A DNA stretch of 64,000 nucleotides from Acuticoccus yangtzensis (lineage in GTDB: Bacteria; Pseudomonadota; Alphaproteobacteria; Rhizobiales; Amorphaceae): the NCBI RefSeq assembly GCF_001927245.1, contig NZ_MJUX01000004.1:186001-250000 (forward strand). Reading direction: 5' to 3'. The position numbers were made by a program, and so were the translations under genes. Each line of letters begins with the position of its first letter. Within the stretch, counting starts at the first letter, position 1. Shown here piece after piece: positions 32,084 to 43,403 of the stretch. The notes under the pieces are model-generated. The model made no database searches, had not been told where the DNA came from, and was given only the letters and a program-made list of their open reading frames with translations.

Positions 32084-32617
32084 TCAGGCCGGATCGCTCG
32101 GCGGCGGCCCTTCCCTGGCGGCGCGCCGGGCGGCCAGCACGTCGGCCAGCGCAGCCTCCTCCTCGGCGGTGAGGCCCCGCTCGCCCACGGCAAGCTCCGG
32201 CCGGCGGCGCAGATAGACCGTCGCGGCGATGAGGCCGAGAACGAGAAGCAGCGCCGGCATCGCCCAAAGCGCCACGGTCGCGGCGTTGAAGGGCGGGCGC
32301 AGCAGCACGAAGTCGCCGTAGCGGTCGGTGAGGAAGGCGAGAACCTCCTCGTCGCTGTCGCCGGCCGTGATCCGCTCACGCACCAGAAGGCGCAGGTCGC
32401 GGGCGATGTCGGCATCCGAATCGTCGATCGTCTGGTTCTGGCAGACGACGCAGCGCAGCTCTTTCGACAATTCGCGCGCCCGCGCCTCCTGCGCCGGGTC
32501 GGCGAGCTGCTCGTCCGGGTTCACCGCCAGCGCCGGGCCCGCGAACGCCAGCAGCAGCACGAAAAGGGCGGCGATGCGCGCCCTCATGCCCCGGCCCATC
32601 ATGCCGCCGCCCGTCAT
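32084..32617 (-). CDS. ccmH: Cytochrome c maturation protein CcmH (CycL)
   Basis: CcmH is a membrane-anchored thiol-disulfide protein that keeps apocytochrome c reduced for haem ligation. The 177-aa protein has a signal peptide ending at GPALA-V, the redox motif LRCVVCQ with Cys56 and Cys59, and one C-terminal membrane segment ([27 protein letters not shown]). Its ATG overlaps the ccmF stop as ATGA, so the two are coupled. It is the short CcmH form; the TPR part found in E. coli CcmH is here the separate ccmI. Confidence 0.95.
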
Positions 32618-34599
32618 GCGCCCGCTCCCGCGGCGCCCTGCGGCACACGCCGCCGCGCCGGAGCGGGAAGGCCGATCCGCAACTTGCGGTCGGCCAGCGA
32701 GAGCACGCCCCCCAAGGCCGCGATCAACGCGCCGATCCAGATGAAGAGCACGAAGGGTTTGTAGAACAGGCGCACCACGACCTTGCCGTCCGCCACTTCG
32801 CCCAGCGTCACATAAAGCTGCGTCGGCCCCATGGTTTTAATCGCCGCTTCGGTGGTGGGCATGTTGCGCGCCGGATAATGCCGTTTGGCCGGCCGCAGGG
32901 TGTCGACCACCCGGCCGCCCCGCCGCACGTCGAACACGGCCACGGTGTCGGTATAGTTCGGTCCCTCCACCCGCTCGGCCCGCGCCAGGGTCAGCTCGTA
33001 CCCGGCGAGGGACGCGGTGTCCCCCGGCCCCATGTCGCGGATCACCTCGGTCTGGAACGCGGACAGGGCGGCGATGCCGATCACCGTGACGCCGACGCCG
33101 AGGTGGCCGAACGCCGTGCCCCACATCGCCCGCGGCAAACGCGGCAGGCGGGCAAGCCGCGCCCCCGCCGCACCGCGCCCGGTGCGCAGCCACAGCTCCG
33201 CCACGCTGCCGACGACGAGATAAAGGCCGATGCCGATGCCGAACGCCGCCGTGAGCGCCGTCTCCTCGCCCGCGAGCCAGGCCGACGCCGCCGCACCGAA
33301 CATCGCCACCACGATGGCCGGCAGCAGGCGCACCGCGGCGGCCGCCGCGTCGCCGCGCTTCCAGGCGAGCAGCGGCCCCGCGGGAAGCGCCAGGAAGAGC
33401 GGCACCATCAGCGGGATGAAGGTCATGTTGAAGTAGGGCGGGCCGACGGAGATCTTGCCGCCCGTCACCGTCTCCAGCACCAGCGGGTAGAGCGTGCCGA
33501 CGAGGACGGTGGCGCAGGCCGTCGTCAGGAAGACGTTGTTGAAGACGAGCGCCCCTTCACGGCTCATCGGCGCGAAGGCGCCGCCGGCCTTCAGCGTCCC
33601 CGCCCGCAGCGCGAAGAGGAGGAAGGCCCCGCCGATGAAGGCGGCGAGGATCATCAGGATGAAGAGCCCCCGCGTGGGGTCCGAGGCGAAGGCGTGCACC
33701 GACGTGAGAACGCCCGAGCGCACCAGGAATGTGCCGAGCAGCGACAGCGAGAAGGCGACGATGGCGAGAAGGATCGTCCACACCTTGAGCGCGTCGCGTT
33801 TTTCCATCACGGCTGCGGAATGAAGCAGCGCCGTGCCCGCCAGCCAGGGCATGAAGGAGGCGTTCTCGACCGGGTCCCAGAACCACCAGCCGCCCCAGCC
33901 GAGCTCATAATAGGCCCAGTAGGAGCCCATCGCGATGCCGAGCGTGAGGAAGATCCACGAGCCGAGGATCCACGGCCGCACCCAGCGCGCCCACGCCGCG
34001 TCGAGCCGCCCCTCGATCAAGGCGGCGATGGCGAAGGCGAAGACGATCGAGAAGCCGACATAGCCGACGTAAAGCAGCGGCGGGTGGATCGCGAGGCCGA
34101 TGTCCTGCAGCAGCGGATTGAGGTCCTGCCCCTCGAACGGCGCCGGAAAAAGCCGCTCGAACGGGTTGGAGGTGGCGAGGATGAAGGCGAGGAAGGCGGT
34201 CGACACCCACCCCTGCACCGAGACCACCGTGGCGCGCAGGCTGAGCGGCATGTTGCGGCCGAGCACGGCGGCGAGGAAGCCGAAGGTGGCGAGCACCAGC
34301 ACCCAGAGGAGCATCGACCCCTCGTGGTTCCCCCACACGCCGGAGATCTTGTAGACCATCGGCTTGGCGGAATGGGAATTCTCGAACACGTTGAGGACCG
34401 AGAAGTCGGAGCGGATATAGGCCACCGTCAACGCCGCGAAGGCGAAGGCGACGAGGGCGAACACGGCGCCTGCGGAGGGTGCCGCCGTCGCCATCAGCCG
34501 CGTGTCGCCCCGCTGCGCGCCGACGATCGGCAGAACCGACTGCACGAGCGCCATGGCGAGCGCCAGCACAAGGGCGAAGTGTCCGACTTCATTCAGCAT
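32614..34599 (-). CDS. ccmF: Haem lyase subunit CcmF (CycK)
   Basis: CcmF transfers haem from CcmE to apocytochrome c at the periplasmic face of the inner membrane. The 661-aa polytopic protein has the tryptophan-rich haem-handling motif WGGWWFWDP (residues 235-243), the following [19 protein letters not shown], and many membrane helices. The start at 34599 ([15 protein letters not shown]) has GAGG upstream and the typical CcmF beginning; an in-frame ATG at 34704 adds an unlikely basic leader. It is separated from ccmE by an unusually long 232-bp spacer. Confidence 0.95.
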
Positions 34600-34831
34600 C
34601 GCGCGTCCTCTTCGTGCCGTCGTCTCCGTCGCATGGGGCCGGCCTTGCCACAAGCGCCGGGCCGGCAGCGACAAGGTGGGCGCCGCGACGGATCTGCGGT
34701 GCACCTCGCGGTTCGATCCAAGCGGTTCGAACCCTAAGGGCTTTCGTCTGATGGATCAGCTCATCCAAACGTCTGATCGGCTCACTCGTGCGCCCGGATG
34801 TCGGCAGAGGGTCTTCGATGTTCGGTCCGAT
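34600..34831 (-). other. Repeat-bearing spacer between ccmE and ccmF
   Basis: Two copies of GCGGTTCGA (34708-34716, 34722-34730), a perfect 10-bp palindrome GGTTCGAACC (34724-34733), and two copies of CGTCTGAT (34745-34752, 34770-34777) lie in this gap. I see no gene. It may hold a promoter or operator for ccmF-ccmH. Confidence 0.5.
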
Positions 34832-35356
34832 TCACTGGGTTGCGGCCGAGCTCGTAACGGGGGCGGTGGCGCCCGGCGTCGTCGCGCGGCCTTCCATGCC
34901 GGTGCGCGCGCCCTCGCCTTCCTTCCAGCGCCCTTGCGCCTTGAGGGAATCGACGACCTCTTTGGGCATATAGTTCTCGTCATGGCGGGCAAGCACCGTG
35001 TCGGCCATCAGCGTGCCGGACGGGTCCATGACGCCTTCGGTGACGACGCCTTGCCCTTCGCGGAACAGGTCCGGCAGGATGCCCGTGTACCGGACGGGCA
35101 CGCGGTTGACGGTGTCGGTGACCGCGAAGGCGACGTCGCCGTCGGCACCGCGGACGAGTGACCCGTCCTCGACGAGGCCGCCGAGGCGGACGCGCACGCC
35201 CGCGGGGTGGACCTCGTCCTTCAGCTCGGTCGGCGTGGCGGCATAGGTGATCCTGTCGCCGAGGCCGACGAGGACCAAGGCTGCCGCCCCGGCGATGGCG
35301 AGGCCCGCCACGGCGATGAGGGCGAGGCGGCGTGCCTTGCGGCCGCGCCGGGTCAC
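34832..35356 (-). CDS. ccmE: Haem chaperone CcmE (CycJ)
   Basis: CcmE binds haem covalently in the periplasm and hands it to CcmF. The 174-aa protein has an N-terminal membrane anchor (LALIAVAGLAIAGAAALVLVGL), an OB-fold beta-barrel, and the haem-binding histidine His125 with Tyr129 in VLARHDENYMPKEV. The start is a GTG at 35356 with GGAGG about 6 bases upstream. The C-terminal 35 residues are a flexible Ala/Thr-rich tail. Confidence 0.95.
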   Translation of the reverse strand: MTRRGRKARRLALIAVAGLAIAGAAALVLVGLGDRITYAATPTELKDEVHPAGVRVRLGGLVEDGSLVRGADGDVAFAVTDTVNRVPVRYTGILPDLFREGQGVVTEGVMDPSGTLMADTVLARHDENYMPKEVVDSLKAQGRWKEGEGARTGMEGRATTPGATAPVTSSAATQ

Positions 35357-35496: not shown

Positions 35497-36735
35497 TCAG
35501 TCTGCCCCGGCCTTTGGTGCGCCGGTAGCCCGCCGCGCCTCATTGCCCGCCTCGCCCGCCGTGTCGCGGATGGCGCTGTCGAAGGCTGACCTTTCGTCCC
35601 CCGTCAGTGCGGCACGGGCGGACTGGATCGCTGTCTCTGCCTCGTCGTCGCGGCCCATGACGCGGTAGGAGCGCACCAGCCGCGCCCACTCGGCCGCCGT
35701 GCCTCCGTCCGCCTCCAGCCGCGCGGCGAGGCCGTCGACCATCGCGCCGATCTGCGCCGCGCGCTCCGCGGCGGGAAGCGCGGCGATGGCGCCCATCGCG
35801 GCCGCGGGCGGCGCGAAATCAGGGCTGGCAGGATCGCCGGAGGGCGGAGTATTCGAGGGCGCATCGCCCGATGGCGTATCAGTTGAAGGCGCACCGCCGG
35901 AGGGCGTATCGCCGGATCGCGCCGTCTCGGCGGCCTGGATCTCGCCGATCTCGGCGCGCGCGATCGGCAGCCAGCTTTCGCTTCCGTCGCTGCCTTCCAG
36001 AAGCGCCCGCCAGCGCCGGGCTGCGGCGATCATGTCGCCCCGCTGCCGGTCGGACACGGCGAGGAAGACCTGCGGCGCGGCGGCATCCGGCTCGGTCGCC
36101 GCCGCCTGTTCGAACAGACCCCGCGCCTCGTCGGTCACGGTGCCGCCGGCGGCGAACATCAACGCCTGGCCGCGCCCGGTCAGGTAGCGCGCGTCCGGTC
36201 CCACCAGGGTGATGGCGCGCTGGTAGGCGTCCGCGGCATCGGCGAACCGGCGCATCCTGAGATAGACCGGCGCGATGGCGGCCCAGCCTTCGCCATCGCC
36301 CGGATCGGCGGTCAGGCGGCGCTCCGCATCGGCGACGAGGTTCGCCGCGTCGCCGGCTCCTGTCGCATCGCGCGAGGCGAGAGGGCGGTCACCATAGCCG
36401 GGCGAGCCGAGCGCGACGTAACCGGCGGCCGCCCCGGCCGGGACGATGAGCAACAGGAGCGCCGCCGTGAGCCACCGCCGCCCGCCGGACGACGGGGCGG
36501 CGCCGCCGCCGCGATGGGCCCGCAACAGGCGGCGCGCCACCTCGGCGCGCGCGGCCTCGGCCTCATCGTCCGGCAGCGTTCCACGGGCGCGATCGGCCTC
36601 GATCTCTTCGAGCTGAGCGGCGTAGATTACCTCGTCCGACCCGCCGAGGGACGGCGCGCCCCCCGCCAGCAAGGGGCGGCAAACAAAGGCCAAAGTGACG
36701 AGCGAGAGCCCGGCGAAGATGATCCACAACACCAT
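35497..36735 (-). CDS. ccmI: Cytochrome c biogenesis protein CcmI (CycH)
   Basis: CcmI chaperones apocytochrome c to the CcmF/CcmH ligation complex. The 412-aa protein has two membrane helices (about 2-24 and 87-109) with the cytoplasmic segment between them typical of the family (VIYAAQLEEIEADRARGTLPDDEAEAARAEVARRLL). A periplasmic TPR domain follows (about 130-265). A five-unit pentapeptide linker (SGDTP-type, about 273-298) precedes a C-terminal helical region. It is 140 bp upstream of ccmE, and the order I-E-F-H is the usual cycHJKL order. Confidence 0.92.
   Translation of the reverse strand: MVLWIIFAGLSLVTLAFVCRPLLAGGAPSLGGSDEVIYAAQLEEIEADRARGTLPDDEAEAARAEVARRLLRAHRGGGAAPSSGGRRWLTAALLLLIVPAGAAAGYVALGSPGYGDRPLASRDATGAGDAANLVADAERRLTADPGDGEGWAAIAPVYLRMRRFADAADAYQRAITLVGPDARYLTGRGQALMFAAGGTVTDEARGLFEQAAATEPDAAAPQVFLAVSDRQRGDMIAAARRWRALLEGSDGSESWLPIARAEIGEIQAAETARSGDTPSGGAPSTDTPSGDAPSNTPPSGDPASPDFAPPAAAMGAIAALPAAERAAQIGAMVDGLAARLEADGGTAAEWARLVRSYRVMGRDDEAETAIQSARAALTGDERSAFDSAIRDTAGEAGNEARRATGAPKAGAD
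35843..35917 (-). repeat. 15-nt tandem repeat inside ccmI
   Basis: Five 15-base units starting at 35843, 35858, 35873, 35888 and 35903 share the GGCGnATCnnCnGAn pattern. They encode pentapeptides such as SGDTP, SGGAP, STDTP and SGDAP in the periplasmic linker. Confidence 0.75.
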
Positions 36736-36915: not shown

Positions 36916-39681
36916 TCAGCGGCGGCCGGTGACCTTCTGGATCTCTTCGCGGACCAGCCGTTCGACGATGCCGTTGAGATTGGCGTCCAGCCACTCGCGC
37001 AGCATCGGGCGCATCGCCTCCTTCACGAGATCTTCGAGCGGGTTGGTGCCGCGGCTCGGCTCGGCCCCGTCGCGGGCCTGGAGCGAGCGTGACAGCTCCT
37101 CGAACGCGGCGCCGGCCGCAAGACGGGTGGTCTGGCTCATCAAATCGGTCGCCTCCATCGGGGGAGTCTGGTCGCGGGTGAAAGCCGTGTCTCGCAAAGG
37201 GGTCCGCTCCGGCGCGCGATCCTTGGGCGCCGGGCGTCTGGTGACCGGCGCTGCGGCGCGCCCGCCGAGCGGCGCTGGGCCCTGCGCGCCATGGCGCGAG
37301 GACGCGCCGCCCGCCGGCGCCTCGCCTGTCGAGGCCCGCGCCGCGGATGCGGCATTCTTCATCCGCTCCGCCATCGCCTGGAACGTCGGCCGCTGCGCCG
37401 CGTCGCGCACGCGGTCCCAACCGCCGGGCCGCTGCGGCTCCGCCTCCAGCGTGGACGTGGCGGCCGTCTGGCGCAGTTCGGCGGGCGGATGCGCGCGGTC
37501 CGCCTGCGCCGCGTCGCCGGCCTGCTGCCGCTCCCAGGACCGCTTCGCGCTCGGGCTTTCGGTGGCGGACGGGCGGGGTTGCGCGCCCGGGGCCGCGTCG
37601 GACCAGCGGTGGAACGCCGCGCGGGCCGATGGGCTCAGCATCTGCGGCCACACCTCTTGACCGCCCGTCCTCAGCGGCATCGGTGCCTCGGAGCGCCCCT
37701 CGTCATGTCTGTGCTGCGGCGCGGGCTGCGGCGGAGACTGCGCGGGAGCGGACGGCGCGGGCGATGACGCCACGGGGGCGGCCGGCAGGCGTCCGGCATC
37801 GGCGCGCACCGTGCGCGGGGCGAGAGAGCGCATGTCCGGCCAGATGCTGATGGCCTGAGCGAGCGGTGATGCGGTCTGTCCACGCGGCGCCGGGGCTTGT
37901 GCAGAGACCTCGTCCACCCGCTCCGCAGCCGCCGCCGGCCGCGGCAGGAATTCGTCCGCGAGGTCTTCCTCTTCGATGAGGCCGAGATGTTCGCTGAAGT
38001 CGGCGATGGCGATGGGCCCATAGGCGGTGCCGAGCGCGCCAGCGCGAGGATCCTCACCGTCGATCATGCCATCCGCCGCAGCGCCGCCGCCAACCCCTTC
38101 GCTTGGGCTCTGTTCCTCGCCGAGGCTCATGTCCTCGCCGGGTTCCAAATCTTCCCCGATCGAGAGATGCTCGCGGGTCGTCAGGTCCCCGCGGGTCGCC
38201 CCGTCCTCGCTGAGGGCCAGGTCCTCGCCGAGCGCCAGCTTCTCGCCCTGCAAAACCGGAGCGTGCGTGTCCGTCGAGAGGCTGGGCGTGGCGGCGGTGT
38301 CCGCGAAGGCGCTCGCCTCCTCGCCGGCAGCACCGCTCTCGCAGGCTGCGGCGTCTTTATTGGCGCGCGAAGGGGGGGCCGGTTCGCTCACCACGGTCCC
38401 GCTCGTCCCTTCATCGGCGGGCGGAACGGATGCGACGCTCGGCATGGGCGCACCGCGACGCGGCGGAATATCGGCGACGTCGAATTCCGGTTCGGCCTTG
38501 GCCGCGCGGGCGCTGCTCCTCAAGGCGTCGGCGATGCGGCGGGCGGCGACGGTCAGCGGCAGCTTGCGTTGCGGCTGGGGCGGCAGTTCGGCGATGTCCG
38601 GCTCGGACAGAACGCCGTCCGCGCCCTCATCGCCAGCTTCCTCCACCGCTTCAACGGGGCGAACGCGCGGCGTCTCATCGGCGTGGGCGGTCCAGCCGCT
38701 GTCGTCTGCGCTCTCCGGCGCCTCACCGTTCGGCGAATCGAACGCCGCAGGCTCTTCGTCGGCCTCGTCGGCGCGGACATCTTCGTTTTCCGCGGTGTCA
38801 GCCGCCGCCCACGGCGCGTACCAGCCCTCATCGGCCTCGTCCGCGGGTCCGTCGTCCTCGGCCGCCATGTATTCGGCCACCTCGTCGTCGGTCACGGCAT
38901 CATCGGGAAAGCTATCATCGGAAAAGCAATCGTCGGGCAACGGATCGTCAGGGAAGGTCTCGTCGGCGGCCTCGGCTTCGCCCCAGACGGCGGCCTCGTC
39001 GTCGGCCTCGGGTGCGGGCAAGGCGCGCAAACGCGGCGGGGACTGCACGCTCTGGCGCGAGCCGGGGCCGGAAAGCGCCAACGGGCTACGCACCTCGAGA
39101 TCGTCGAGGCCGTCGTCGCCGCTTGCCCAATCGGGCCCGCTGCTCTCGGGCGGGCAGATGAGCGGACCGGCATCATCGCCGTCCTCGGCCGGCACCCGCG
39201 CCCCCTCGCGCCCACCGGCCGCGTGCCAATAGGCGGCGCCGTCGCGCCCGGTCGCGGTCTCCGCGCCATCGCCGAAATCCGCCTCGAAAAGGGGCGACGC
39301 CTCCTCGGTGTCACACTGGTCGATCGCCGCGGCGAAGGCCATGCGGGTCGCCTCGGCGATCGCCTTGTCGGCCTCGGACAACGTCATCTCCGCGGCGGGC
39401 TCTGGCCGGCCCGCACGAGGCGCCGTCCGCCCAGCGTCGGCCCCAGCACTCGCCGGTGCCCTGCCCGCATTGGCGAGCGCGGTGCGGAAGGACCGCTCGA
39501 CGAGCTCCGGCGTCGGATCGAGTGTCTTCACCCGCTTCTTCATGCGCGGCAGCGGCGTGTCGTCGTCGGTCCCGGCCACGTCGTCCGGCGCGGCGTCCTC
39601 GCGGCCTTCCGCGCGACCATGCGCCGTCCGCGGCTCATCGTCGGCGATGATCCTGCGTATAGAGGCCAAGAGGTCATCCAT
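36916..39681 (-). CDS. popZ: Giant PopZ-like polar organising protein (DUF2497)
   Basis: The 921-aa protein has PopZ/DUF2497 signatures at both ends. The N-terminus is MDDLLASIRRIIADDEP, a short helix that recruits partner proteins in Caulobacter PopZ. The C-terminus is LEDLVKEAMRPMLREWLDAN followed by LNGIVERLVREEIQKV, the oligomerisation helices. Between them lie about 800 residues of acidic, Ala/Pro-rich, presumably disordered sequence with pentapeptide (PDD) and hexapeptide (LxxGED) repeats. Caulobacter PopZ is about 177 aa, so the linker is several times longer than usual. The start has a GGGAGAGAG ribosome site. PopZ forms a polar matrix that anchors the chromosome origin and cell-cycle kinases; the assignment rests on the two terminal motifs. 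Confidence 0.8.
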   Translation of the reverse strand: MDDLLASIRRIIADDEPRTAHGRAEGREDAAPDDVAGTDDDTPLPRMKKRVKTLDPTPELVERSFRTALANAGRAPASAGADAGRTAPRAGRPEPAAEMTLSEADKAIAEATRMAFAAAIDQCDTEEASPLFEADFGDGAETATGRDGAAYWHAAGGREGARVPAEDGDDAGPLICPPESSGPDWASGDDGLDDLEVRSPLALSGPGSRQSVQSPPRLRALPAPEADDEAAVWGEAEAADETFPDDPLPDDCFSDDSFPDDAVTDDEVAEYMAAEDDGPADEADEGWYAPWAAADTAENEDVRADEADEEPAAFDSPNGEAPESADDSGWTAHADETPRVRPVEAVEEAGDEGADGVLSEPDIAELPPQPQRKLPLTVAARRIADALRSSARAAKAEPEFDVADIPPRRGAPMPSVASVPPADEGTSGTVVSEPAPPSRANKDAAACESGAAGEEASAFADTAATPSLSTDTHAPVLQGEKLALGEDLALSEDGATRGDLTTREHLSIGEDLEPGEDMSLGEEQSPSEGVGGGAAADGMIDGEDPRAGALGTAYGPIAIADFSEHLGLIEEEDLADEFLPRPAAAAERVDEVSAQAPAPRGQTASPLAQAISIWPDMRSLAPRTVRADAGRLPAAPVASSPAPSAPAQSPPQPAPQHRHDEGRSEAPMPLRTGGQEVWPQMLSPSARAAFHRWSDAAPGAQPRPSATESPSAKRSWERQQAGDAAQADRAHPPAELRQTAATSTLEAEPQRPGGWDRVRDAAQRPTFQAMAERMKNAASAARASTGEAPAGGASSRHGAQGPAPLGGRAAAPVTRRPAPKDRAPERTPLRDTAFTRDQTPPMEATDLMSQTTRLAAGAAFEELSRSLQARDGAEPSRGTNPLEDLVKEAMRPMLREWLDANLNGIVERLVREEIQKVTGRR
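38111..38236 (-). repeat. 18-nt tandem repeat inside the popZ-like gene
   Basis: About seven 18-base units from 38111 to 38236 encode hexapeptides of the type LALGED, LALSED, LSIGED, LEPGED, MSLGEE (residues about 482-524). The two units nearest 38236 are almost identical in DNA. Confidence 0.7.
38881..38970 (-). repeat. 15-nt tandem repeat inside the popZ-like gene
   Basis: Six imperfect 15-base units (starting 38881, 38896, 38911, 38926, 38941, 38956) share an (A/T)TCGTCGG-like core. They encode the acidic pentapeptides FPDDP, LPDDC, FSDDS, FPDDA and VTDDE. Confidence 0.75.
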
Positions 39682-39891
39682 CGCGCTCTCTCCCTGCCAC
39701 GACCAGAAGTGTCACGACGCCGCGGCCGCGAATCGGGGTTACGAACGGAAAGGTAACAGTTGCGTTGCCGCCACTGGGCCGGACTGTCGCGATCGGGCGG
39801 TTTCATTCACAGTTCCGTGGCGCGGCGGCGCTACCGCAGATTGACCCGGTTCGCGCCGCCACGCTCCGATCCACCGCCACGGGAGGCCGCC

Positions 39892-40767
39892 TTGTTCGAC
39901 CTGCGAGACGCCGAGATGCTGCGGGAGGTTGTGCGCGCGGGCGGCTTCCGCGCCGCGGCCGACGCGCTCGGCCTCTCCCAGTCCGCCGTCTCCAACCGCA
40001 TCGCCGCGCTGGAGCGCCGGCTCGGCGTCCTCCTCTTCGACCGCTCGCGGCGGCAGGCCAGCCTCACCCTCGTCGGCCGCCGCATGCTGGAGGAGTGCGA
40101 GCGCCTGATCGCCCTGCGCGACCAGATCGCGGAAGGGATCAGCGGCGCCTCCATCGCCGGGACGCTGCGCCTCGGCGTCGCCGAAACGATCGTCCACACG
40201 CGCCTGCGCAAGATCGTCAAGGTGCTGGGCGAGGCGGCGCCTGCGCTCAGGATCGAGCTGTCGGTCGAGGTGTCGGAGCGCCTCGCCGCCATGCTGGTGG
40301 GCGACGAGATCGACCTTGCGGTGATGCTGCGCCAGTCGGTCCCCGCGGGCGCCACCGGAGGGCCGATCGGCAAGACTTCGCTCGGCTGGTACGCAGCGCC
40401 CGGTCTCGCCCTCGGCAGCGAGCCGCTGAGCCTCGCCGCCCTCGCCCGCCACCCCATCGTCAGCTTCTCGCGCGGGACGCCGCCTTATCGGGAGGTGGAG
40501 CGGCTCTTCGCCCAGCCCGAGATCGACCCGCCCATCCTCCACGGCAGCGCCTCTCTCGCCACCGTTCTGTCGCTGGTGGAGGACGGCCTCGGCATCGGCA
40601 CCCTGCCGGCCGAGATGGTGGCGCGCGACGTCGCCGCCGGGCGCATCGTGCCCGTCGCCGTGGAGCCCGCGCTCGCGCCGTCGGACCTCCACTTCGCGCT
40701 GTGCCGGATGAAGAGCTTGGGGGCCACGCTGGACGGTGCCGTGGCCTCGCTGTGCGAGCCCGAATGA
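39892..40767 (+). CDS. LysR-family transcriptional regulator
   Basis: A 291-aa regulator with an N-terminal winged helix-turn-helix (LREVVRAGGFRAAADALGLSQSAVSNRIAALERRLGVLLFDR) and a periplasmic-binding-like effector domain (about 90-290). The start is a TTG at 39892, supported by a perfect GGGAGG 5 bases upstream and by a normal LysR length; longer frames upstream have no support. A palindrome with a T-N11-A core overlaps its stop codon and precedes the hydro-lyase gene. This suggests it controls the downstream transport/catabolic genes, unusually from a co-directional position. Confidence 0.9.
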   Translation: MFDLRDAEMLREVVRAGGFRAAADALGLSQSAVSNRIAALERRLGVLLFDRSRRQASLTLVGRRMLEECERLIALRDQIAEGISGASIAGTLRLGVAETIVHTRLRKIVKVLGEAAPALRIELSVEVSERLAAMLVGDEIDLAVMLRQSVPAGATGGPIGKTSLGWYAAPGLALGSEPLSLAALARHPIVSFSRGTPPYREVERLFAQPEIDPPILHGSASLATVLSLVEDGLGIGTLPAEMVARDVAAGRIVPVAVEPALAPSDLHFALCRMKSLGATLDGAVASLCEPE

Positions 40768-40783
40768 TCACTTCAAGTGATCA
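40765..40783. promoter_or_regulatory. Palindromic operator candidate (LysR box)
   Basis: TGATCACTT-C-AAGTGATCA is a 19-bp palindrome with perfect 9-bp arms around one central base. It contains the T-N11-A core expected of LysR sites, overlaps the LysR stop codon and lies 56 bp upstream of the hydro-lyase start. A TTGACA follows at 40805-40810, but I see no good -10 at standard spacing. Confidence 0.6.
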
Positions 40784-40839
40784 ATTAGCGGGTCATTTCA
40801 TCCGTTGACAGCATCGGGTATCTATCCAAAGCTCCCCTT

Positions 40840-41739
40840 ATGAACGTCGCTGTGAATGGTCCCTCCGCCGATCCGCATCGGCCTTTCTTCGCCGACCCGG
40901 CGGTGCTTCGCCGCGCCTGCCGCAGCGGCGCCTTCACCGGCCAGACCGCGGGACAATGCCCCGGCGCGCTCCAGGCCAACCTCGTCATGCTGCCCAAGGA
41001 GGCGGCGGACGAGTTCCTCGCCTTCGCCGCGCGCAACGCCAAGCCGTGTCCGTTGGTGGGCGTGTCGGACCCCGGCTCGCCGCACCTTCCCATGGTGGCG
41101 GACGATCTCGACCTGCGCACCGACGTGCCGCTCTACCGCGTCTTCCGCGACGGTGAGGCGGCCGGCGACGTCGCCGACATTACCCACCTGTGGCGGGACG
41201 ATCTCGTCACCTTCGCGCTCGGCTGCTCCTTCTCGTTCGAGGAGGCGCTGATCGCCGAAGGGCTGCCGGTGCGCCACAGCGCCGCCGGACGCAACGTGCC
41301 GATGTACGTGACCAACCGCGCCACCCAGCCCGCCGGCCGGTTCGAGGGGCCGATGGTCGTCTCCATGCGCGCGATGCCGCCGGAGGCCGCGATCCGCGCC
41401 GTCGTCCTCAGCGACCGCCAGCCGATGGCGCATGGCGCGCCTGTCCACATCGGCGATCCCGCCGCGCTCGGCATCGCCGACGTGACGGCGCCCGATTTCG
41501 GCGATCCGCCGGTCATCATGGACGGTGACATCTGCGTTTTCTGGGCCTGCGGGGTGACGCCGCAGCGCGCCCTCAAGGCCGCCAAGGTGCCCTTCGCGAT
41601 CACCCACGCGCCGGGCTTCATGCTGGTCACCGACCTCATCGCCGAGGGGCTGACCACCTTCCCCACCCCGACGAGCCGACGGATCACCCCACCACGCCAT
41701 CCCCCCAACGCGCCAACCTTAGGCCCACCAATCCCGTGA
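40840..41739 (+). CDS. DUF1445 putative hydro-lyase (D-glutamate cyclase-like)
   Basis: A 299-aa cytoplasmic protein of the DUF1445/YcsI family, annotated as putative hydro-lyase; some relatives act as D-glutamate cyclases. Family-like segments are TGQTAGQCPGALQANLVMLP, FALGCSFSFEEALI, VPMYVTNRATQPAGRF, MVVSMRAM and CVFWACGVTPQ followed by APGFMLVTDL. The last 25 residues are Pro-rich and look like an extension. It has no clear ribosome site. It lies 11 bp upstream of dctP, so it is probably co-transcribed with the TRAP transporter and may act on the imported compound. Confidence 0.82.
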   Translation: MNVAVNGPSADPHRPFFADPAVLRRACRSGAFTGQTAGQCPGALQANLVMLPKEAADEFLAFAARNAKPCPLVGVSDPGSPHLPMVADDLDLRTDVPLYRVFRDGEAAGDVADITHLWRDDLVTFALGCSFSFEEALIAEGLPVRHSAAGRNVPMYVTNRATQPAGRFEGPMVVSMRAMPPEAAIRAVVLSDRQPMAHGAPVHIGDPAALGIADVTAPDFGDPPVIMDGDICVFWACGVTPQRALKAAKVPFAITHAPGFMLVTDLIAEGLTTFPTPTSRRITPPRHPPNAPTLGPPIP

Positions 41740-41750
41740 GGAGCTTGCCC

Positions 41751-42821
41751 ATGACTGACCGCCTTGCCGCCTCCCTCCTGGCCGCCACCGCGCTCGGCGC
41801 CCTCGCCGCGGGGTCCGTGCCCGCCGCCGCGCAGGACATCGAGCCCGTCACCCTGTCGGTGGTCGGCTCCTGGTCCAGCCTGCCGCTCCACAAGTCGTTC
41901 GAGGCGCCCTTCTGGACCGAGACGCTGCCCGCCGCCTCCAACGGCGCCATCACCGTGGAGCTGACGACGTTCGACCAGATGGGCGTCGCCGGAAGCGACG
42001 TCTACCGCCTGCTCAGCGACGGCGTGTTCGACGTCGGCACCACGGTGGCCGACTACATCGTCGGCGACGCGCCGGCGCTGGAGGGGCTCGACGTGCCGCT
42101 GGTCGCCACCTCCGCCGAGGACGCGCGGGCGATGGTCGAGGCCGCCTGGCCGATGGTGGAGAAGATCGTCGCGGAGAAGTTCAACGCCAAGCTTCTCACC
42201 ATTTCGCCCTATCCGCCGCAGGTGGTGTTCTGCCGCGGCGAGGTCGCGAGCCTTGCCGATCTCGCCGGCAAGAAGGTCCGCGGCTCCGGCCGCATGACCA
42301 CGAAATTCCTCGACGCGCTTGGGGCGGAGGGCATCAACGTCGCATTCGGCGAGGTGCCGGGCGCCTTGGAACGCGGCGTCGTGGACTGCGCGATCACCGG
42401 TTCCGGCTCCGGCTACAATGCCGGCTGGTGGGAATCGGCCGATACCTTGATGACGCTGCCGCTGGGCGGTTGGGACCCGGTGATCTCGGCCATGAACCTC
42501 GACACCTGGAACGCCCTTCCCGAGGCCACGCAGGAGCTGATCGCAACGCTCGCCAAGGCCGAGCTGGAGACGAAGGCCTGGGAAGGCGCAGCGGCGGCGC
42601 TCGACGGTGACATCGCCTGCCTCACCGGCAACGGCGACTGCCCGATGGGCGACCCCGCCGCGATGACCCTGGTGGAGCCGTCAGACGAGGACATCGCCAC
42701 CGCCGAAGAGGTGCTGAAGACCGAGGTGCTCCCCGACTGGGCCGAGCGGGCCGGGCCGGACGCCACCGCCGCCTGGAACGCCAGCGTCGGCGATGTCGTC
42801 GGCGTCAAGCTCGGCGAATAA
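41751..42821 (+). CDS. TRAP transporter substrate-binding protein DctP (first system)
   Basis: A periplasmic binding protein of a tripartite ATP-independent transporter. The 356-aa precursor has a signal peptide (cleavage near A27/Q28). The mature part has the DctP fold, including SPYPPQVVFCRGEVASLADLAGKKVR-type elements and the arginine that usually salt-bridges a substrate carboxylate (KKVRGSGR). Its second half ends with a cysteine pair (IACLTGNGDCP). AGGAG lies 7 bases before the ATG. It is followed directly by dctQ and dctM. The ligand is unknown; an organic acid is likely from the family. Confidence 0.9.
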   Translation: MTDRLAASLLAATALGALAAGSVPAAAQDIEPVTLSVVGSWSSLPLHKSFEAPFWTETLPAASNGAITVELTTFDQMGVAGSDVYRLLSDGVFDVGTTVADYIVGDAPALEGLDVPLVATSAEDARAMVEAAWPMVEKIVAEKFNAKLLTISPYPPQVVFCRGEVASLADLAGKKVRGSGRMTTKFLDALGAEGINVAFGEVPGALERGVVDCAITGSGSGYNAGWWESADTLMTLPLGGWDPVISAMNLDTWNALPEATQELIATLAKAELETKAWEGAAAALDGDIACLTGNGDCPMGDPAAMTLVEPSDEDIATAEEVLKTEVLPDWAERAGPDATAAWNASVGDVVGVKLGE

Positions 42822-42824
42822 GAG

Positions 42825-43403
42825 TTGGCGTCGCGCGGGCCCACCACGGATGGCGTGGTCCGCGCCGTCCACCTCCTGCAACGGACCAACCGGGCGATGG
42901 CCGTCCTCCTCGGCATCGCCCTCCTCGCCACCGCCGCGCTGATCCTTGCCGAGGTGACGATGCGCGCCACCTCCGCCGGCATGCTCGGCGGCACCGACGA
43001 GATTTCCGGCTACGTGATGGCCGGTGTCGCCGCGTGGGGCTTCGCCTACGCGCTGCTGGAGCGGGCGCACGTGCGCATCGACATCCTGCACCGCCGTCTG
43101 CCGCCGCGGGGTCGCGCCGCGCTCGACCTTCTGTCCATCGCCTCGCTCGCGACCGTCGCCGGCCTCGTCGCCTTCCACGGCTGGGGCGTGCTCGCCAAGA
43201 CGATCGCCCGAAGCAGCCGCTCCAACACCGCGCTGGAGGTGCCGCTGTGGATCCCGCAGTCCATCTGGCTCGGCGGCTGGGTGTGGTTCACACTGTCCGC
43301 GCTGGCGCTTCTCGTGGCGGCCTCCGTGCTGGTCGCGGCGGGTGAGCGAGAGGCGGCAGAGCGCGCCGTCGGCCTCGTCACCGAGGCGGAGGAGCTGGCA
43401 TGA
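42825..43403 (+). CDS. TRAP transporter small permease DctQ (first system)
   Basis: A 192-aa membrane protein with the four-helix DctQ layout (helices around 26-44, 62-80, 100-120 and 145-167, including ISGYVMAGVAAWGFAYALLERAHVRIDIL). The start is a TTG at 42825, three bases after the dctP stop, with AAGAG overlapping that stop codon. Its own stop overlaps the dctM ATG as ATGA. It stabilises the permease complex. Confidence 0.87.
   Translation: MASRGPTTDGVVRAVHLLQRTNRAMAVLLGIALLATAALILAEVTMRATSAGMLGGTDEISGYVMAGVAAWGFAYALLERAHVRIDILHRRLPPRGRAALDLLSIASLATVAGLVAFHGWGVLAKTIARSSRSNTALEVPLWIPQSIWLGGWVWFTLSALALLVAASVLVAAGEREAAERAVGLVTEAEELA

Follow-up and report, generated by a model that had tools for sequence, protein, structure and literature searches.

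The locus examined here raises the question of whether a single long open frame in Acuticoccus yangtzensis, lying in the 64,000-nucleotide stretch of DNA that was analysed (the window), encodes a PopZ protein whose linker has grown far beyond its usual size, and what such a linker might do. In Caulobacter, the C-terminal helices of PopZ drive condensation and the linker tunes the fluidity of the condensate (PMC9512792); the N-terminal helix binds clients (PMC9512792, PMC11519897). When the Caulobacter linker is doubled, the condensate becomes too fluid and fitness falls, an effect offset by a pentavalent oligomeriser; natural long PopZ linkers are reported to carry a lower charge fraction (PMC9512792). 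Cells of A. yangtzensis JL1095T are oval with one end pointed (PMC5747140). An earlier note, made from the DNA alone, had described the frame as a PopZ several times the usual size with both termini intact, joined by about 800 residues of acidic disorder, and possibly a natural extreme of the Caulobacter design.

Identity of the protein and integrity of the gene

The popZ orthologue (Table 1) encodes 921 residues, beginning with MDDLLASIRRIIADDEP and terminating with WLDANLNGIVERLVREEIQKVTGRR, and the ribosome-binding-like sequence GGGAGAGA stands immediately 5' of its ATG. The DUF2497 profile (PF10691) matches aa 846-918 with E=1.1e-21 and 77.4 bits, the curated cut-off being 27 bits, and in the AlphaFold2 (AF2) model this domain consists of helices 850-872 and 881-918. 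At the other end, a helix of the LASIRRII type is found in aa 1-17 and is predicted to span aa 2-14; all 17 residues are identical (17/17) in the orthologue of a sister species, G004, although 4 codons differ synonymously. The client-binding helix and the oligomerisation domain are both intact, as the earlier note had read them, and are present in one copy each. Extra copies of the oligomerisation domain, considered as a compensation for a long linker, were rejected, as there is only one DUF2497 stretch. Between the two ends lies a disordered linker with short predicted helices embedded in it, and the gene occupies the orthologous position upstream of ccmI, ccmE and ccmF. A DUF2497 search of the whole genome (5,043,263 bases in 29 contigs) gave this one match and no second PopZ, short or other. 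By domain, termini and locus, the 921-aa protein is PopZ.

The popZ frame looks coding from end to end. In fact, GC2 is the minimum in all its 100-codon blocks, linker included, and GC3 is the maximum in every block except aa 501-600, in which GC1 exceeds it. A 619-aa open frame antisense to popZ (37897-39756, plus strand) was judged to be a shadow frame of the kind expected of GC-rich DNA. In G004, the popZ gene is even longer (1154 aa), is in frame on a contig of 5.13 Mb, and carries linker islands collinear with those of the window; because this version shares in-frame conserved islands, an assembly error at the window popZ is unlikely.

Table 1. Positions of popZ, its parts and the neighbouring genes in the window (aa, residues of the 921-aa protein)
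Feature	Position	Strand	Basis or property
popZ orthologue	36916..39681	-	ORF with ATG start, PF10691, codon-position bias, conserved neighbours
Helix H1, aa 1-17, MDDLLASIRRIIADDEP	39631..39681	-	matches client-binding element of Caulobacter PopZ
Island aa 40-78, PxPRxKxRxxxxDPxPxxVERSxxxALANAxRA, predicted helix 59-72	39448..39564	-	score 114 vs 82
Predicted linker helix, aa 103-123	39313..39375	-	AF2; aligns with G004 and G003
First acidic linker block, aa 124-360	38602..39312	-	29.5% D/E, net charge per residue -0.25
Imperfect 15-bp tandem repeat, FPDD/FSDD-type pentapeptides	38899..38937	-	score 57
LSEPDI motif and predicted helix 378-392, aa 358-392	38506..38610	-	motif comparison, AF2
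Second acidic linker block, aa 421-595	37897..38421	-	net charge per residue -0.18
Imperfect 18-bp tandem repeats, LGED/LSED-type hexapeptides	38172..38247	-	scores 50, 62
Neutral to slightly basic Pro/Ala-rich block, aa 596-845	37147..37896	-	net charge per residue +0.04
Island aa 678-706, WPxxLSPSARAAFHRWSD	37564..37650	-	score 103 vs null maximum 82
Island aa 748-799, WxRxRxAAQRxTFxxMAxR, predicted helix 767-779	37285..37440	-	score 103 vs 82
DUF2497 oligomerisation domain, aa 846-918, single copy	36928..37146	-	Pfam, AF2
ccmI	35497..36735	-	Pfam TPR_CcmH_CycH; adjoins popZ in window and six relatives
ccmE	34832..35356	-	Pfam
ccmF	32614..34704	-	Pfam

Genomic neighbourhood

The order popZ-ccmI-ccmE-ccmF is kept in all 7 Acuticoccus members in which popZ was found. 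CcmI of the window has a repetitive Ser/Gly/Asp/Pro stretch of its own, SGDTPSGGAPSTDTPSGDAPSNTPPSGDPAS, which is perhaps another small linker expansion. In Caulobacter and Magnetospirillum the neighbours of popZ are valS and an outer membrane efflux gene (PMC6414705), and a TolC-type outer membrane efflux gene adjoins popZ in three short-form Acuticoccus, in the sister genus and in two Xanthobacteraceae. In the window tolC is not beside popZ; its place is taken, here as in G003 and G004, by genes for a LysR regulator, a D-glutamate cyclase-like protein and a TRAP transporter (39760-43403 in the window, divergent from popZ); in none of the other Acuticoccus members examined were these genes seen next to popZ. 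Because G006, whose PopZ is short, is also without the efflux gene there, this loss is not tied to a long PopZ. No DUF2497 match was obtained in a further Acuticoccus genome, G005 (91% complete, 290 contigs), where popZ may have been lost, relocated or caught in an assembly gap; translation inspected by eye places an apparent urease gamma subunit gene upstream of ccmI, at popZ's expected place (C41:14000-19958).

Linker length in the class and in the genus

The linker of the window PopZ measures 827 aa, roughly a sixfold excess over the common length. Among 138 distinct alphaproteobacterial PopZs, a sample that over-represents Bradyrhizobium-like bacteria, the median linker is 139 aa (5-95% range 89-200), and the median length counted from the N-terminal motif is 230. 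In a class-wide listing ordered by domain score, the next-longest open frame after that of the window has 395 aa among the matches listed. The order-wide listing held a single larger open frame beyond Acuticoccus, one of 652 aa in another family (L029), and this was rejected since it consists of a PopZ of ~280 aa preceded by a spurious non-coding stretch.

Within the genus, PopZ has 921 aa in the window, 1154 in G004, 525 in G003 and 298-357 in the four others. The protein is thus several times the usual size, but its description as a natural extreme holds across the survey and not within Acuticoccus, where G004 is longer and G003 intermediate. In this survey the greatly expanded linker is restricted to these three related marine species. 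The CcmF proteins of G003 and G004 are 87-88% identical to that of the window, as against 71-77% in the remaining members of the genus, and for this reason the long-PopZ species appear to belong to a single sub-lineage. A general inflation of linkers was also considered and rejected, as the long-PopZ species show no lengthening of the open frames for FtsZ and RNase E.

Charge and composition of the linker

As a whole, the linker is 19% acidic and 11% proline, with a net charge per residue of -0.10; the corresponding sample medians are -0.10 for charge and 22% for proline. An unusually low charge density as a counterweight to length was accordingly rejected. The charge is not spread evenly: two acidic blocks, separated by a neutral stretch (aa 361-420), are followed by a neutral to slightly basic one, and a similar acidic-to-neutral order is seen in the linker of G004. 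Of the acidic disorder proposed earlier, the disorder is well borne out, with pLDDT below 50 at 747 of the 921 PopZ residues, but the acidity is partial, since the last block carries no net acidic charge. The linker does not resemble the Caulobacterales type (~93 aa, strongly acidic, proline-rich), a type not required of PopZ generally.

In the sample, whose sequences are not phylogenetically independent, the published trend of charge with length is seen again: as linkers lengthen, the acidic fraction falls (Spearman -0.35) and the net charge per residue rises (Spearman +0.45). Since the window PopZ has no added valency and its charge density lies at the sample median, the published counterweights to a long linker are not obviously applicable to it at sixfold length.

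Conserved islands, predicted helices and repeats

AF2 places four helices in the linker (59-72, 103-123, 378-392 and 767-779), tentatively, as the alignment held only 7 sequences. Conservation was assessed from ungapped segments shared with G004 against a block-shuffle that keeps local composition (200 shuffles, null maximum 82), and three islands exceeded this null: aa 40-78, 678-706 and 748-799. At the position equivalent to the first, the sister genus carries LPDLIEQSIREAF. The LSEPDI motif, or a similar one, is present in most Acuticoccus members; the helix segment 378-392 on its own scores 47, under the shuffle null. The two distal islands have no clear copies in G003 and were not detected in the short Acuticoccus PopZs. 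Moreover, among ten family genomes ARAAFHRW is confined to the popZ of the window genome and of G004. The islands differ from those of G004 by 11 (aa 40-78) and 6 (aa 678-706) synonymous codons, and by 7 in the first 29 codons of aa 748-799, the part in which they were counted; these differences are consistent with selection on the peptide.

Short tandem repeats occur in the window linker (Table 1), and the linker of G004 has several, one of 42 bp, which suggests that both grew partly by slippage. Structure and PDB sequence searches returned nothing useful as a solved-structure match to the window PopZ, and a scan of genome contigs by linker patterns gave no match.

A possible role for the long linker and alternative explanations

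We consider it probable that the protein is a functional PopZ forming a looser condensate, with extra binding motifs embedded in its linker. As the single PopZ of the cell, it would act as a pole-organising scaffold, located at the pole, in which condensation follows from oligomerisation of the C-terminal helices and clients dock on the N-terminal helix. Within one Acuticoccus sub-lineage the linker would have expanded from roughly 200-270 to about 430-1060 aa, partly through slippage-like short tandem repeats and partly through retained or newly conserved short motifs. A very long linker of average charge density, with valency unchanged, would give a more dilute and more fluid condensate with clients wider apart, and the islands may supply additional weak sites for self- or client-binding, keeping it together. 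We advance only tentatively the stronger proposal that the linker is a functional innovation, having gained internal docking or self-association motifs, so that stickers rather than added oligomeriser helices would provide the escape from the trade-off between length, charge and valency.

The main rival explanation is neutral expansion, in which the linker of this sub-lineage tolerates replication slippage and its length matters little to function. The more than twofold spread in length among three species sharing 87-88% CcmF identity agrees with it, as do the tandem repeats of the window and G004; the bulk of the linker is not alignable, and slippage drift could explain most of its length. 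Three islands conserved above the local-composition shuffle, the acidic-then-neutral order common to both long forms and the fitness cost of linker doubling in Caulobacter (PMC9512792) argue against it, and we regard it as possible rather than likely.

Somewhat more doubtful is the idea that the expanded linker is a second binding platform for partners elsewhere recruited by the N-terminal helix or by separate scaffolds. It would account for the conservation of WPxxLSPSARAAFHRWSD, restricted to these PopZs among the ten genomes, and of WxRxRxAAQRxTFxxMAxR, which coincides with a predicted helix; however, the distal islands occur in two species only, the first of these motifs is not predicted by AF2 to fold alone, and the partners are putative.

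That an assembly or frame error has fused the PopZ ends over unrelated sequence, as a short-read assembly of 29 contigs (PMC5747140) and the long spurious frames of GC-rich DNA, such as that on the opposite strand, might lead one to suspect, deserves practically no credence, being ruled out by the continuous codon-position bias and by the independent G004 homologue with collinear islands in a different assembly, and contradicted also by a window that contains no N.

Returning to the looser, motif-bearing condensate that we favour, the interest of the window PopZ for condensate researchers is that it offers a natural test of how the length of a linker governs the way protein droplets behave at cell poles. 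Closely related species keep linkers of ~430, 830 and 1060 aa with valency unchanged and a charge density that is only average, while other members of the genus have linkers of ordinary size. With this series one can ask whether confinement of material properties to a narrow range is a general rule, and by what means evolution keeps to that range.

Comparison with known PopZ proteins

PopZ of Caulobacter crescentus has 177 aa and a linker of 78 aa, so that the linker of the window is about ten times longer; both proteins have an N-terminal client helix, a disordered linker and C-terminal DUF2497 helices in a single copy. The window PopZ starts directly at the helix, whereas Caulobacter PopZ has a short leader ahead of it. 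Compared with that of Caulobacter, the linker has less proline, alternates acidic and neutral blocks and contains internal conserved islands, and its net charge per residue is -0.10 vs -0.28 (PMC9512792). Consequently the earlier suggestion of an extreme of the Caulobacter design stands for length only: being patterned, with conserved islands and a far lower charge density, the linker is more than an enlarged copy of the Caulobacter one.

Engineered Caulobacter IDR-156 (PMC9512792) likewise combines a lengthened linker with an unchanged oligomerisation domain, but it is merely of double length and highly charged, with over-fluid condensates and reduced fitness, whereas the form in the window is natural and maintained. 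There is also a close likeness to the short Acuticoccus PopZs (G001, G002, which is A. mangrovi, G006 and G007), which share the ccmI-side locus, a near-identical N-terminal start, an LSEPDI-like motif and the C-terminal domain, and are shorter by a factor of two and a half to three. In the PopZ papers searched we found no protein of this size, although such a length may already have been noticed, for instance in the alphaproteobacterial length distributions that accompany PMC9512792. The window PopZ is a protein of known type, and what sets it apart is the length of its linker, the pattern of that linker and the motifs embedded there.
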